Source of the DNA: Kosakonia sacchari SP1
GTDB taxonomy: Bacteria > Pseudomonadota > Gammaproteobacteria > Enterobacterales > Enterobacteriaceae
Direction: 5' to 3'
DNA: 64,000 nt
Assembly (NCBI RefSeq): GCF_000300455.3
Contig: NZ_CP007215.2
Span: 992,001-1,056,000, forward strand
Shown here: positions 3,822 through 9,396 of the stretch, in pieces
How the letters are laid out: the number at the start of each line of letters is the position of its first letter
How positions within the stretch are numbered: position 1 is the first letter of the stretch
Program-made: the position numbers and the translations under genes
Notes under the pieces: model-generated
The model's input: only the letters and a program-made list of their open reading frames with translations
Databases searched by the model: none
What the model was told of the DNA's origin: nothing

Positions 3822-4769
3822 ATGCCGTTAGCCATGATTAACGCCCGCCTGGATACGGCGCTGAAAGAACGCGTTGACCCCAAACTACAGCAACTGGGTT
3901 GCACGGCCACCCAGGCCATCACCGCCCTTTACCAGTTTGTCGATCAGAACGACCGATTGCCTTTCACGATAGAAACCCGGGTCTGGCGGCCGGAAGAGTC
4001 GCTGCAGAACACCCTCGACGGCCTGCTGTCGGCCCGGCCCCGGCTCGCGGAGATCGCCCGGCTGATGAGCGAGGATACGCTGACAGAGGACGCGCGCCGG
4101 AGATACTGCCAGGCGCTGGCCATCGATATCGGCATGATCAAAGACGACATGCGTCTGTACAGCGCGACCGGGCGCGCGGGTGAACACCTGCAGCATTATG
4201 TCCAGTCTTCGCTCGGCGAGGCTTATCTGGCGCTGACCCTCTGCCACAGCATTCTGGAGGATTCACCGAACAGCTATGGACGAACCCTGTTCCTGAAAAA
4301 AGAAAAAGCCTTTGCCGGGGCGCTGGCAACGGCTGAAACCCGCATGACCGAGATGGGCCTCCATCAGGCCGGGGCGGTGACAGCGTCCTTTACGCACGAG
4401 GGCACGTACTGTTCTGTCGAGGTGTACCGGCCGGAGAGCTATCAGTATGGAGCCTGGCAGGTCCGCGTGATGCTGAAACCCGCGCGGAGGGGGCAGTCGT
4501 TACCCGCCAGCCTGAGTTGGCAGGGCTTCACGTTCCCGGCAGTCACCGATCGTGTTTTTAGCGTTGCCAGCCCGTACAGCACGCCGGTGACAGGGAAGCA
4601 CGGCACCGAGATCGGCTTCAGGTTTGTGGAAGGGTATGCGTTCTTCCACCTGTACACTAGTGGCACGGATGAGGAACACAACGCCATCAACGCTGGGGAG
4701 GTGGCCGCCACGCTCGGTGAGTATGTGGACGGTAAACTGGAAGAGATCACCGGGGCCCCTGGCTCGTAA
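3822..4769 (+). CDS. RelB/DinJ-type ribbon-helix-helix protein with a long C-terminal extension
   Basis: Residues 1-50 resemble the DinJ/RelB antitoxin N-terminus: short beta strand, ALKERVDPKLQQLGCTATQAI, then TALYQFV and the DRLPF signature. Usual DinJ/RelB antitoxins are 80-90 residues, but this protein is 315. The extra ~260 residues are helical at first (60-190), then beta-rich, and match nothing I know. No RelE/YafQ toxin follows; downstream comes an IS remnant and traX. The operator array just upstream suggests autorepression. The very C-terminus may have been altered by the adjoining IS remnant. It could be a stand-alone regulator rather than an antitoxin. Confidence 0.75.
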   Translation: MPLAMINARLDTALKERVDPKLQQLGCTATQAITALYQFVDQNDRLPFTIETRVWRPEESLQNTLDGLLSARPRLAEIARLMSEDTLTEDARRRYCQALAIDIGMIKDDMRLYSATGRAGEHLQHYVQSSLGEAYLALTLCHSILEDSPNSYGRTLFLKKEKAFAGALATAETRMTEMGLHQAGAVTASFTHEGTYCSVEVYRPESYQYGAWQVRVMLKPARRGQSLPASLSWQGFTFPAVTDRVFSVASPYSTPVTGKHGTEIGFRFVEGYAFFHLYTSGTDEEHNAINAGEVAATLGEYVDGKLEEITGAPGS

Positions 4770-4977: not shown

Positions 4978-5760
4978 ATGACACAGTTTCTCAGCGTAAC
5001 AATGAACGGACTGACGTCCAGAATACACCACTGGCTGGCCATCAGTCCGGGGGCAGCCGACCGGCTCAAACTGACGGCGCTGGTTGCCATGCTGGCGGAC
5101 CATATCAATACGCTTCTGCTGACGCATCCGCGCCCGGAGCTGTATGCGCTGGGGAGAATGGCGTTTCCGCTGTTCGTCCTGATATGGGCACGCAATGTGA
5201 TGCTCCGGCCGGAGCGCCTGCAGTTAAGGGCAAACCGGATGTGGATCTGGGCAGTGGTCACCCAGCCGGCATTCAGTCTGGCGTTCCGGGGGCACGACCC
5301 GTGGTACGCCCTGAACATTCTGTTCGTCTTCGCCAGCGTCACGCAGCTGCTTGCCTGGCATCACAGGTACCGTCTGGCTGGCATGGCGGGCGGCGTGTTA
5401 TTGCTAGTCCTGATGGCGTGGCCACTGTCTGTCGCAAGCTATGGCGTGCCGGGGCTGGTTCTGGCCCTGTCGCTGGCCATCTTCCTGCACAACTCCTCAT
5501 TCCGGCAGTGCAAGACTGCCGGAGCCGCCGCCTTCATTGCTCTGCTTGCACTGAACAGTCAGCATTTACAGGAGATACCGGTTACCGTGGTTGTGCTGGC
5601 TATTCTTCCCACCGTTCTGCTGCCGGCAGCGGCAGTCAGTGCCGCCACCTCACCGGCTGCGGGAAGGGAAAACCGGTTTATGCCGGCGTCATTCTTTTAT
5701 CTGGCCTATGTCGGCCATCTGCTGGTCATCGGGCTGGTCAGGCTGCCGGAGCTGGGTTGA
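4978..5760 (+). CDS. traX: TraX family protein (pilin acetylase)
   Basis: The 260-residue protein has at least seven hydrophobic segments. It also has the TraX signature RLKLTALVAMLADHIN (~31-46) and LGRMAFPLF (~58-66). F-plasmid TraX (248 aa) is an inner-membrane protein that N-acetylates the conjugative pilin. AAAGGA lies 5 nt before the ATG. No other transfer gene is in the window, so this may be a leftover of a plasmid tra region or a solitary TraX-like acetyltransferase. It ends just before a minus-strand gene pair transcribed toward it. Confidence 0.85.
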   Translation: MTQFLSVTMNGLTSRIHHWLAISPGAADRLKLTALVAMLADHINTLLLTHPRPELYALGRMAFPLFVLIWARNVMLRPERLQLRANRMWIWAVVTQPAFSLAFRGHDPWYALNILFVFASVTQLLAWHHRYRLAGMAGGVLLLVLMAWPLSVASYGVPGLVLALSLAIFLHNSSFRQCKTAGAAAFIALLALNSQHLQEIPVTVVVLAILPTVLLPAAAVSAATSPAAGRENRFMPASFFYLAYVGHLLVIGLVRLPELG

Positions 5761-5948: not shown

Positions 5949-6637
5949 CGAATTATCCGGTTAATTGCAGCTGCTATTTCGTCATCAGAAGACATAATCC
6001 GGTTAAGTGACGGGTTCCTGCTGATGACAGGCTCAATCAGAAAATACAACATTTCCAGCTCTTCAGCATAGAGAGCATGATAGTACATACCATTTTGTTG
6101 CTTAAGCCTGTCGGCCGCATCTGCAGCCTTCTGCACATAGGCATACCAGCCGGTAAGTGTGAGTGCCAGTGTGCTTCGCTTTAGCAGGGCGCGATCAATC
6201 GTTGTTGTCAGTCCAAACGAATAACAGGCTGCTGCTGTGATGGCTGAAGCCAGAGCCTGATTTGTCAGTGATCCTGACGCTAAACCAGCGCCAAGTTTTA
6301 ACAGCGCTCTCTCTACACGACGTAGTCGCTCCGGTGTCAGGTTCTGCAGAAGCAAATCAACATATATGCGTATCATCCTTTCAATTACGCTGCGTTTACC
6401 TATAAGGCCGTAGATGTTCAGGGCGAAACGGATATCTTCTTTTTTCTGCTTTGCGCAGACGTCCTGATAATTCTGAGTGAAGCAGCTTGTGTAAAACGCA
6501 AGCCGCGTCATGCCGGTCTCAAGATTTTGTCCCTGCTTCAGGATTTCATCACGCACACCTGCAAGTGCGTGCTCAAGCATCAGTGCGAGATGTTTGTCAG
6601 CCTCCATCTTGGCGGCTATAGCGCTGTTTGTGTACAT
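5945..6637 (-). CDS. Hypothetical 230-aa protein, first gene of a coupled pair
   Basis: The protein is mostly helical, with a basic middle (LTPERLRRVERALLK) followed by a small-residue hydrophobic stretch at ~115-145 (GAGLASG, then ALASAITAAACYSFGL) that could enter a membrane or form a helical hairpin. No signal peptide is visible and I know no family for it. The last codon overlaps the start of a 58-aa two-span membrane protein. A helical protein with a hydrophobic hairpin beside a small membrane protein fits an effector/immunity pair, but this is speculation. Confidence 0.6.
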   Translation of the reverse strand: MYTNSAIAAKMEADKHLALMLEHALAGVRDEILKQGQNLETGMTRLAFYTSCFTQNYQDVCAKQKKEDIRFALNIYGLIGKRSVIERMIRIYVDLLLQNLTPERLRRVERALLKLGAGLASGSLTNQALASAITAAACYSFGLTTTIDRALLKRSTLALTLTGWYAYVQKAADAADRLKQQNGMYYHALYAEELEMLYFLIEPVISRNPSLNRIMSSDDEIAAAINRIIR

Positions 6638-6803
6638 ATCAGTGATCCTTTTACTGACCTGTTCTGATTTTCAGATTATTCGGATTTCCTCTATTTTATT
6701 GCCTATAACATCCTGGATGAAAGCTGTAAGTGACTGAAGAGCATTCTCTTGTCTGAACTGACCACTCAGGTGCGGATAAAATCAGGGGCGATATTACAGG
6801 CAG

Positions 6804-6829
6804 AAAAAATCCCGCCTTTTGGCAGAATT
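6804..6829 (-). terminator. Rho-independent terminator of the small-peptide unit
   Basis: On the minus strand AATTCTGCC-AAAA-GGCGGGATT forms a 9-bp stem (two G-T wobbles) followed by a T run. It lies 14 nt beyond the stop codon of the second short peptide gene, which supports a discrete short transcript. Confidence 0.75.
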
Positions 6830-6842
6830 CCGGTGTACTGCA

Positions 6843-6923
6843 TCAGCGCTTTTTAAGAAACTCTATTATGGTCAGAGTAATAACGATTGCCGACTGCAGT
6901 AACTTCAACGCCAACTTGCCCAT
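6843..6923 (-). CDS. 26-aa hydrophobic basic peptide, type I toxin-like (copy 2)
   Basis: An ATG at 6923 with a strong ribosome binding site (GGGAGG, 5 nt spacing) opens 26 codons. The peptide starts MGKLALKLLQ, has a hydrophobic core (AIVITLTII) and ends EFLKKR. It aligns without gaps to the peptide encoded just upstream (11 of 26 identical by eye, including LKL, VI, LT, E and the final R). A single membrane-spanning segment with a basic tail is the build of type I toxins such as Ldr, Fst or TisB, but I know no named family with this sequence. A terminator follows 14 nt later. Confidence 0.65.
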   Translation of the reverse strand: MGKLALKLLQSAIVITLTIIEFLKKR

Positions 6924-6944
6924 TTAAGCCTCCCAGGCCCTGGG

Positions 6945-7025
6945 TTAACGATTTTGCCAGTATTCCCGCAGGGTCAGAATGATGACCGTTACCGGGTGCG
7001 CGAGTTTGAGAAACAAAAGCAGCAT
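6945..7025 (-). CDS. 26-aa hydrophobic basic peptide, type I toxin-like (copy 1)
   Basis: From the ATG at 7025 the frame has exactly the same 81 nt as the neighbouring copy. It starts MLLLFLKLAH, has a core VTVIILTL and ends REYWQNR. A second ATG two codons upstream (7031) is equally close to the purine-rich GGAAGGAAGAGAG. I prefer 7025 because the length then equals the paralogue. The frame stays open upstream to 7181, but that part is polar and reads as leader. The 150-nt leader (7032-7182) after the HEPN stop would hold the promoter. An antisense RNA on the plus strand is possible but was not identified. Confidence 0.6.
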   Translation of the reverse strand: MLLLFLKLAHPVTVIILTLREYWQNR

Positions 7026-7182
7026 ATGCATTTTCTCTCTTCCTTCCTTTTCGCGCCTGGCTGCAAACACCCCTGGGCTTGCCTTTACAGTTGCTGTATC
7101 AGTAGTCGCCAGATACATTTGGCACGGTAACTGGAGCTGCGAACTCCGACTTTTCCCAAGGGTTTTTAACTGAGATGCCAAA

Positions 7183-8340
7183 TCATTCCTTTGAGTAAAG
7201 GCTTTTCCACCATTTATTCAGAATCGAATGAGTCATGTGGAAGAATACATTGAGATTTATAGGGGCTTCCTTATGTGACCATGAGGCTCCCAGGGTTGAT
7301 TTCAATGGAGTAAAATTGGAGGTAGGTGGAAGTATGGCTTGTTCAGCTAATCCAAAATAGTTGTCAGGTGGAGAACACATAGGTTGAGGGAAAGGTTTCC
7401 CAGCATGAAGCGCTAAAGAGCGTAATTTATATACTGATTTAAATATATTTAGTAAATTATCCTCCGTCCATTCTATTTTTCCGCTCTTCGGTCTTATAGG
7501 CGGGGCATCAGGAAGGAAATTGACGCAAAAGTCACAAAATTTTTTAGTTGCTCCAAATGTTCCTTCAAATTCTGTAGCAATTTCTTCAATCAGCCCGTCA
7601 AATTTAAGGTCTAATAATCTATCAAACAATTGTGGTTTAGATGCTTTGAATCTTTCAACCTTATCACCCCTGGAAGAGTCCCAATTTCCTGCAGCCACTT
7701 CTAACGCTGACACCATTAATAACCACGCTAGATTTGGTGAGGATTCGCAAATCCAAAGGCTATCTTGGAAATTTCGAGCTGACTTAATTAGTGAGTTAAA
7801 ATCTTTTTCTGAAAGCTTGTAAATATCGTTTATCAATTTCAACTGTGAAATTTCAATATATTTTTGTGCTGAAGGAACTATAAGGGATCCTTTTGACATC
7901 AAAGGTGGTGGAGGGTTTTGCTCCGCTCTTGGGCGACCATAATCAAGTTGAGAACCCTCATATTCTCTGACATTTGAGCCTGCGTGTGCTCTAACGCCTA
8001 ATTTCAAGCTAACCAAAGCTGCGATTTCATCGCTCAACCAACCGCCATGATAGTCATCACTATTTGGCTTTTCATCCATAAAAGACAACTTTGTTGTGTT
8101 TAAAGCAGACAAGGCTCTCACTGTTAATGTTGGTCTTACGCCCACTGTTTCAAAAGGGATCATGTTTAGGAAGGAATAGACTAAATTTCCTTTAACTTCA
8201 TCTGTGAATCTACTATCGGAATAAATTATGAACTCAAATATTTCGAACGAGTCAATCTTAGCTTGAAATAGCTTACAATTTTTATAAGAGAGTAAACTAG
8301 CTCTCAGGAATTCATCGTTTTGAATCATAAATTCATCCAT
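7183..8340 (-). CDS. Apea-like HEPN domain protein, probable RNase/defence type
   Basis: The 385-residue protein starts at an ATG behind GGGGAG. The C-terminal half has the pattern of Apea-like HEPN domains: LAWLLMVSALEVAAGNW (~206-222) and later KLRSLALHAGKPFP (~319-332), which holds an Arg-x4-His motif. In the HEPN superfamily that motif is the RNase site, and Apea-like proteins occur in anti-phage systems and abortive infection. The N-terminal half (1-190) is not recognised. The gene is clearly AT-rich compared with its neighbours, a sign of transfer. It lies between an IS3 remnant upstream and the tandem short peptides downstream. Confidence 0.7.
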   Translation of the reverse strand: MDEFMIQNDEFLRASLLSYKNCKLFQAKIDSFEIFEFIIYSDSRFTDEVKGNLVYSFLNMIPFETVGVRPTLTVRALSALNTTKLSFMDEKPNSDDYHGGWLSDEIAALVSLKLGVRAHAGSNVREYEGSQLDYGRPRAEQNPPPPLMSKGSLIVPSAQKYIEISQLKLINDIYKLSEKDFNSLIKSARNFQDSLWICESSPNLAWLLMVSALEVAAGNWDSSRGDKVERFKASKPQLFDRLLDLKFDGLIEEIATEFEGTFGATKKFCDFCVNFLPDAPPIRPKSGKIEWTEDNLLNIFKSVYKLRSLALHAGKPFPQPMCSPPDNYFGLAEQAILPPTSNFTPLKSTLGASWSHKEAPINLNVFFHMTHSILNKWWKSLYSKE

Positions 8341-8586: not shown

Positions 8587-9396
8587 TCACGACGAGGCCT
8601 GTTCAAAGGCCTCCGGACTGACGCCGCCGAGATGGCTGTGGCGCCGGGCCCGGTTGTAGAACACTTCAATGTAATCGAAGATATCGGCCCGGGCCAGATC
8701 CCGGGTTTTATAGATGCGCTTTCTGATCCGTTCTTTTTTCAGCGAACTGAAGAACGACTCCGCTACCGCATTATCCCAGCAGTTGCCACGCCGGCTCATG
8801 CTCGGGGCCAGGTTATTGGCCCGGCAGAAGCGCTGCCAGTCGTCGCTGCCGTACTGGCTGCCCTGATCGCTGTGTACGATAACCTCGCCGTCCGGTTTTC
8901 GTCGCCACACGGCCATCATGAGCGCATCCAGCGCCAGTTCGCGTGAGAGAGTGGGTTTCATCGACCAGCCCACCACGTTACGGGCGAAGAGATCGATAAC
9001 CACCGCCAGATATAACCAGCCCTGCCAGGTGCGGATATAGGTAATGTCGGTTACCCAGACCTGATTGGCCCGGACAACGGTAAACTGCCGCTGCACACGA
9101 TTAGGCGCAACCACTGAAGGTCTGCCGGCGATACGACGCGGAGCTTTATAGCCGCGCACGGCTTTAATCCGGTTCAGTTGCATAATACGGCCCACCCGAT
9201 TTTTACCGCAGATTTCCCCGATTTCGTTCAGGTCGCCATGAACCCGGCGGTAACCGTATACGCCTCCGCTCAGTGAATAGGAGTCACGGATAAGCGTCAG
9301 CAGACGCTGGTTATCTTTATCCCGCGCGGAGACCGGGTTATGCAGCCACGCATAAAACCCGGCCCGGGCAACGCACAACACCCGACACATCGTCAT
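8587..9396 (-). CDS. IS3-family transposase OrfB (DDE integrase)
   Basis: The 269 residues have the IS_3 rve core: Asp in WVTDITYI (~117), Asp in IVHSDQGSQYG (~178) and Glu in DNAVAESFFSSLKKE (~214), the DDE triad. The helix-turn-helix_21 region GGVYGYRRVH is also present. The functional protein is probably an OrfAB fusion made by -1 slippage at A5G (9471-9476, minus strand). From there the orfB frame is open without a stop into this ATG. Confidence 0.92.
   Translation of the reverse strand: MTMCRVLCVARAGFYAWLHNPVSARDKDNQRLLTLIRDSYSLSGGVYGYRRVHGDLNEIGEICGKNRVGRIMQLNRIKAVRGYKAPRRIAGRPSVVAPNRVQRQFTVVRANQVWVTDITYIRTWQGWLYLAVVIDLFARNVVGWSMKPTLSRELALDALMMAVWRRKPDGEVIVHSDQGSQYGSDDWQRFCRANNLAPSMSRRGNCWDNAVAESFFSSLKKERIRKRIYKTRDLARADIFDYIEVFYNRARRHSHLGGVSPEAFEQASS

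Follow-up and report, generated by a model that had tools for sequence, protein, structure and literature searches.

The locus considered here most resembles in build those type I toxin-antitoxin systems in which a divergent antitoxin RNA pairs over a short stretch (about 18-25 nt) far upstream of the toxin start codon, namely tisB, shoB, zor, dinQ and timP. The toxin ZorO, a 29-aa peptide different from those described below, is encoded singly on its mRNA, and two toxins under one antisense RNA have a precedent in yonT/yoyJ of Bacillus subtilis. According to the available portions of PMC7708055, a pseudoknot in the far-upstream loading site is needed for translation of tisB, and Romilly and colleagues proposed, on the strength of energy predictions for zor and shoB, that toxin mRNAs of this type have in common a requirement for pseudoknots. 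The accessible sections of PMC11228461 describe a pseudoknot needed for translation of timP, which joins the hairpins on either side of a hairpin whose loop, well upstream of the start, is bound by the antitoxin TimR (ryfA). In the corresponding part of PMC3919570, the divergent RNA of zor/orz pairs through its 5' end over 18 nt, and a variable region, V1, sets specificity among paralogues.

The locus lies in a 64,000-nucleotide stretch of the Kosakonia sacchari SP1 genome (4.90 Mb, one contig), referred to here as the window, in which the first-pass annotation had proposed a type I toxin locus with an antisense RNA from two tandem minus-strand frames. The results indicate, with a probability of roughly 80%, that the peptides serve as the toxins in a type I toxin-antitoxin family of mobile elements of Enterobacteriaceae and that the copy in the window survives as a disarmed remnant of a plasmid that integrated. 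The type I build was evident in relatives but incomplete in the window, where the RNA promoter and an intergenic segment are missing, and the antisense RNA, predicted in relatives, is divergent, lies upstream and matches the leader but does not overlap the peptide genes. Features are collected in Table 1. Reading peptide 1 from Met3 at 7025 gives the equal lengths originally reported (81 nt, 26 aa), and a by-eye recount of the gapless alignment of the two peptides returned the same 11 of 26 identical residues. The GGGAGG ahead of peptide 2 was present as described, with GGAGG also found 5' of peptide 2 in L001-L004, L007, L026 and L028. The terminator claimed 14 nt past the peptide 2 stop was seen by eye at that distance, and L001 holds a perfect counterpart of its stem-loop, but a consensus terminator scan of the window region did not include it among its calls.

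Table 1. Features of the window and of loci with a similar layout but another peptide (positions are those of the window unless a locus is named)
Feature	Position	Strand	Remarks
Peptide 1 gene	6945-7031	-	28 aa, MHMLLLFLKLAHPVTVIILTLREYWQNR; ORF listing
Purine-rich RBS-like stretch, peptide 1	7037-7047	-	By eye; AAGTAAGGA-like at same place in several relatives
Peptide 2 gene	6843-6923	-	26 aa, MGKLALKLLQSAIVITLTIIEFLKKR; ORF listing
RBS-like GGGAGG, peptide 2	6929-6934	-	By eye
Intrinsic-terminator-like hairpin 3' of peptide 2	6804-6828	-	Stem-loop 6828-6809, T-run to 6804; by eye
Leader remainder	7047-7126	-	Outer stem 7126-7121/7057-7052, H1 7117-7095, H2 7090-7061; covariation in relatives
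Single fused repeat	7104-7127	.	15-nt core 7104-7118; relatives have A and B
Small-RNA gene remnant	7104-7201	+	Retains antisense core and first hairpin (7133-7147); lacks promoter; terminator degraded
ORF directly upstream, 385 aa	7183-8340	-	ORF listing; no family above cut-off
Similar repeat/hairpin/pseudoknot layout, other peptide	L062:1501-1633	-
Similar repeat/hairpin/pseudoknot layout, other peptide	L095:1728-1861	+
Similar repeat/hairpin/pseudoknot layout, other peptide	L096:590-700	+

Judged from their divergence, both peptide genes are genuine and subject to selection: their frames are kept beyond chance in other plasmids and phages with a pooled pN/pS of 0.30 for the copy-1 kind (78 pairs, 13 loci) and 0.37 for the copy-2 kind (91 pairs, 14 loci), pairs in neither set being independent. 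Between the window and L001, whose peptides remain similar, pS was 0.11 and 0.22 and pN was 0.02 and 0.10 for peptides 1 and 2, respectively. Seventeen peptides could be aligned with gaps confined to their ends. Each peptide carried one hydrophobic segment (best 17-residue mean 1.9-2.7), and proline as well as a basic residue close to the end were each noted in 27 of 29 peptides. Searches of Pfam and NCBIfam gave no match to the peptides above cut-off, the one stray Pfam line having an E value of 0.19. Literature searches on the peptide strings FKIVPPM, LKLAHPV and LLLKLLPP and on AIKQLTGRP, LKLAHPVT and FIKLLQPVV returned no papers, and a search by topic, including the available part of PMC11264685, found no report of such a peptide family; these searches covered open-licence texts and are weak evidence of absence. 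No annotation lay under the E. coli form of the locus in the 40 matches listed of 114. In the record of L003, a hypothetical protein is annotated on the minus strand over the leader and peptide 1 (2521-2874), which is perhaps a false call. The very small size of both the peptide and the RNA makes type I loci difficult to detect.

Relatives were found on plasmids, phage-plasmids and prophages of Enterobacteriaceae, in mobile-element settings with varied neighbours. With the window region as blastn query, 101 of 72,556 plasmid records matched, each over less than 80% of the query, and plasmid NC_021492 of Enterobacter sp. R4-368 was among the sequences matched; with L003 as query there were 101 plasmid records, ten of them at query cover of at least 80%. 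The E. coli form was present in 114 of 5,426 complete genomes (106 times on plasmids, 8 times on chromosomes) and in two of 50,697 phage records, including that of phage Cyrano, which has 108,379 bases, like the LF82 plasmid. Pattern scans recovered 14 IMG/VR contigs, or 24 inclusive of those 14 with a looser pattern; among genome contigs the strict motif was found in none and the looser motif in two. The leader model, run with filters that lose weak hits, was positive in five of 392 genomes sampled from the family, the window's own genome counted, and in one of 394 genomes sampled at order level, again the window's own. Thus, the distribution looks patchy, and within these searches the family was seen in Enterobacteriaceae alone.

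Fifty-one loci, which take in the window and near-identical copies (many are near-identical), were classed by peptide content as having both peptides (15), the first kind only (11) or the second kind only (25). Automated expressions assigned 15, 3 and 24 loci to these classes, respectively, and reading the nine unassigned loci individually added eight to the first kind and L055 to the second. In E. coli, the LF82-like elements examined had the second kind only (e.g., L006, L019 and L022), while L021, an 89-kb E. coli plasmid, had both. Either peptide can therefore stand alone. The first-pass annotation had recommended a tblastn search of plasmids with both peptides. Such a search with a copy-1-like peptide gave 19 plasmid records, twelve of them already known and seven new (L087-L093) and absent from the models. 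In all seven, the leader scored 62.6-70.4 bits and the divergent RNA 56.5-59.6 bits, in the expected geometry, and all carried the upstream repeat with 18-20 identical nucleotides. They represent about four sequence kinds (L087/L093, L089/L090, L091/L092 and L088), the L089 kind having already been met as L061. A VapC-type gene was noted within about 1 kb in L087 and L089-L092, accompanied in four of these by a gene of the VapB or AbrB type, and a SIR2-family gene was next in both Atlantibacter records, L087 and L093.

All 31 other loci then known to hold the leader motif, many of them near-identical, carried a pair of short repeats: A lies about 187-213 nt ahead of that motif, and B lies 34-36 nt ahead of it, with a spacing between cores of 177 bp in L001, L003 and L016. 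On the opposite strand, repeat A is where a predicted RNA of about 90 nt, divergent from and upstream of the peptides, has its 5' end. A promoter resembling TTGAAG-17-TAAGCT was found, with small changes, directly before the core of this RNA in 22 of 22 loci tested and ended 6 or 7 nt short of the core in the loci measured. A generic promoter scan of the L003 stretch called no sigma-70 site, leaving uncalled also this promoter, which was read from conservation, and promoter scans for the toxin yielded nothing usable. The predicted RNA continues with a covarying hairpin and then a covarying terminator. Over the 14 pairs of these two helices, 93.5% of cells were paired, six pairs had double changes and 30 cells were double-changed versus 10.7 in shuffles; among the five shuffle measures, the number of double-change pairs (equalled in 40 of 500 shuffles) and that of further pair types (239 of 500) were unexceptional.

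The cores of repeats A and B change together. Over 12 chosen loci, their 15-mers differed by one mismatch versus 34.7 after shuffling, and not one of 100,000 shuffles gave so low a value. For six distinct core types the observed match was reached by one of 720 permutations, and for eight types (L042 and L047 added) by one of 40,320, the true pairing, the mean being 34.6. A and B have different flanking sequences. Gene conversion could account for part of the likeness, and the H1 hairpin of the leader alone does not explain the co-change because A lacks the 3' half of H1. For the L003 RNA and its leader 25 continuous pairs were predicted, and predicted duplex energies over 22 loci averaged -43.4 kcal/mol for cognate and -34.0 kcal/mol for non-cognate combinations, closely related cores still pairing well between loci. 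The relatives thus encode, as far as sequence can tell, an RNA complementary to the toxin mRNA at the same locus, with short pairing far upstream of the start as in the divergent group. With enough diverged copies, covariation can reveal the bases of antitoxin-target pairing from sequence alone.

The leader structure was likewise evident from covariation. Its three helices (5' hairpin, H1 and H2) comprise 19 pairs, of which 10 were double-changed, with 96.2% of cells paired; on each of the five measures, none of 500 shuffles was as good. The antitoxin core occupies the 5' arm and loop of H1. RNAalifold added an outer stem around H1 and H2 and drew the 5' hairpin differently. Energy folding of one leader was no better than that of shuffles (z 0.07), and single leaders folded in this way gave no support. 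An open frame upstream in the leader was rejected, its ATG being retained in just 16 of 22 loci.

A complementarity scan placed near its top a candidate pseudoknot between the strand after the first hairpin (CACCC) and the loop of H2 (GGGTG). This was 97.3% paired over 22 loci, and 97.5% paired with four of five pairs double-changed in an alignment from a model built without the pseudoknot. The variant TGCTC/GGGCA was noted in six loci outside the model set, several of them near-identical, and TGCTT/AAGCA in L062. Pairing was complete in 24 of 25 loci, L042 breaking three of the five pairs. Two measures, double-change pairs (89 of 500 shuffles) and pair types (462 of 500), were not above shuffles; the case was made by how many cells were paired and how many had changed on both sides, by the covariation score and by a slide control, and together these show the predicted leader pseudoknot to be under selection. 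Evolutionary support for a leader pseudoknot is thereby provided in a family other than zor and shoB, together with natural variants for testing.

By analogy, the mode of action would be that of tisB/istR-1, zor/orz and timP/TimR; the peptides would form a new family, often with two per mRNA, and their toxicity is likewise presumed from these parallels. The intact toxin mRNA would consist of the 5' hairpin, then a three-way junction of H1, the antitoxin target, and H2, whose loop would pair with the upstream strand as the pseudoknot, followed by one or two membrane peptides and a terminator. The pseudoknot would allow ribosome loading at a site far upstream of the start codon, and the divergent RNA of about 90 nt, with its 5' end matching the 5' arm and loop of H1, would invade H1 and stop this loading. 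Once the RNA was exhausted, as might be expected in cells that lose the element, peptides would be made, the inner membrane damaged and those cells harmed.

An alternative in which antisense control acts not on toxins but on small membrane proteins that do no harm or are of use, such as envelope regulators or holin-like helpers of the element, seems unlikely. Many small hydrophobic peptides are not toxic, and the varied neighbours within mobile elements are compatible with such a role. Against it stands the pairing of a divergent antisense RNA with a structured leader, which is a build reported for type I toxins in the available parts of PMC3919570, PMC7708055 and PMC11228461.

Of the described systems, timP is nearest to the proposed toxin family in layout. 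In K-12 its antitoxin RNA is divergent, as in the relatives, and in both cases the antitoxin hairpin lies between the two pseudoknot partners. The two differ in that here the pseudoknot strand adjoins the first hairpin and the binding hairpin forms part of a three-way junction, and TimP, at 41 aa, looks unrelated by eye. The tisB/istR-1 locus shares the short hydrophobic peptide and the divergent RNA; its pseudoknot lies upstream of the antitoxin site, whereas that of the family lies around it. The dinQ/agrAB locus of K-12 also has the toxin on one strand and its RNAs divergent upstream. At the level of sequence, none of tisB, zor and timP is a demonstrated relative. Thus, the Rfam model for ryfA/timP (RF00126) gave no match to L002, L003, L005 or L006 at E values up to 5, and the leader model did not match three K-12 regions (the timP, dinQ and tisB loci). 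The small-RNA model, too, gave no match at tisB, and its sole match in the three regions, on AgrA, scored 22.4 bits, other sites in the window's own genome reaching up to 26.5 bits. OrzO-P (RF02083), whose cut-off is 60 bits, reached 19.6-29.8 bits in three relatives, and AgrB (RF02891), whose cut-off is 40 bits, reached 27.6 bits. These matches were not counted because RNAI and other families match at the same place with similar E values, L002 had no listed match, and best scores in the window's own genome were 27.9 and 27.7 bits, respectively. The sub-threshold AgrB and OrzO-P matches were full-length and fell on the predicted RNA (L006 2735-2816, L003 2901-2977).

Similarity to Fst and Ldr toxins was limited to general properties (length, one hydrophobic segment, proline and a basic residue near the end). 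The likeness to Ldr/Ibs-type loci noted in the first-pass annotation did not extend to Ldr membership, the motif APxxxG, given for Fst/Ldr in the available part of PMC8309996, or its shorter form PxxxG being found in none of 29 peptides; the Fst and Ldr models of Pfam listed none of the 10 + 4 peptides searched at E values up to 10, with filters that drop most weak matches. The prophage RNA svsR, which limits phage infection and is cI-linked and co293-like, was judged unrelated from its description in the part of PMC12803456 available.

In the window, a single repeat takes the place of A and B. Compared with L001, its left flank was identical to that of A at 18 of 20 positions and to that of B at 10 of 20, while its right flank was identical to that of B at 18 of 20 and to that of A at 6 of 20. 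The simplest reading of these flanks is that one recombination between repeats A and B made the window copy. Such a fusion would have removed the RNA promoter, the intergenic segment and the leader's first hairpin with its pseudoknot strand, and the lost segment should also have held the toxin promoter. The promoter pattern of the relatives' small RNA had no match in window 6601-7600. The leader model R1 matched 7174-7047 with 87 bits, the consensus being followed only from 7126 on, and the small-RNA model R2 scored 37.2 bits on the remnant. The second-best R2 match in the genome (26.5 bits, E 0.003) and DNA matches of 15-23 nt made no convincing case for an intact antitoxin elsewhere, and a core-like match, L012, was set aside as sitting, by eye, in an unrelated coding stretch.

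A reading of the window copy as a functional type I locus appears about as improbable as a harmless role of the peptides. In this reading, a different promoter would yield the antitoxin from the plus strand of the fused repeat, and the toxin would be transcribed by read-through from the upstream 385-aa ORF, a possible source of transcription into the peptides. Such a locus would have kept what is seen to be kept, namely both frames, their RBS-like sites, H1, H2 and part of the small-RNA body, and synonymous rates exceed nonsynonymous rates relative to L001. However, the antitoxin promoter found in all relatives tested is missing, the RNA terminator has decayed, and promoter-like sites in the window region were near the chance number (three versus a shuffled mean of 1.5). 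Since the fusion took the RNA promoter and intergenic segment, the window copy is not an intact toxin-antitoxin locus, and from the parts missing it is probably a recent, silent, disarmed relic. A possible route of disarming is thus one repeat recombination that takes away the RNA promoter and, presumably with it, the toxin promoter. The surroundings seem to be those of a former, integrated conjugative plasmid or island, since they include an ORF resembling an integrase at 967-1746, a TraX-like gene at 4978-5760 and, at 8587-9396, an IS3 transposase. A 315-aa ORF at 3822-4769 resembles RelB/DinJ antitoxins over its first ~50 residues, below cut-offs.

The leader persists in loci that are missing one or the other peptide. 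This persistence and the inconstant ATG of the upstream frame would suit a conserved element that is RNA alone, with the small frames incidental, a view made very improbable by the constraint on both frames, the confinement of gaps to peptide ends and the presence of the leader in loci found through the peptide alone. A similar leader was also found with another peptide. The leader model matched the chromosomal locus L062 with 33.1 bits, repeats and pseudoknot being present, and L095, a fuller relative of L062 whose peptide ends in VAIKQLTGRP, with 20.4 bits. It is conceivable, though on balance doubtful, that the leader, with its co-varying antisense core, its target hairpin in a three-way junction and its pseudoknot, works as an interchangeable cassette for RNA control that has been coupled with two or more sorts of short peptide unrelated to each other, and that the two paralogous peptides, driven together in many elements, may act together in the membrane; an RNA control part would then be common to unrelated peptides. 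The peptide ending in VAIKQLTGRP had no family match in Pfam or NCBIfam. Partial chromosomal matches to its locus were found in 31 of 5,426 E. coli genomes, with at most 80% of the query covered in each, and the one examined, L096, scored 11.3 bits with the leader model. In L062, the peptide of this type was apparently truncated.
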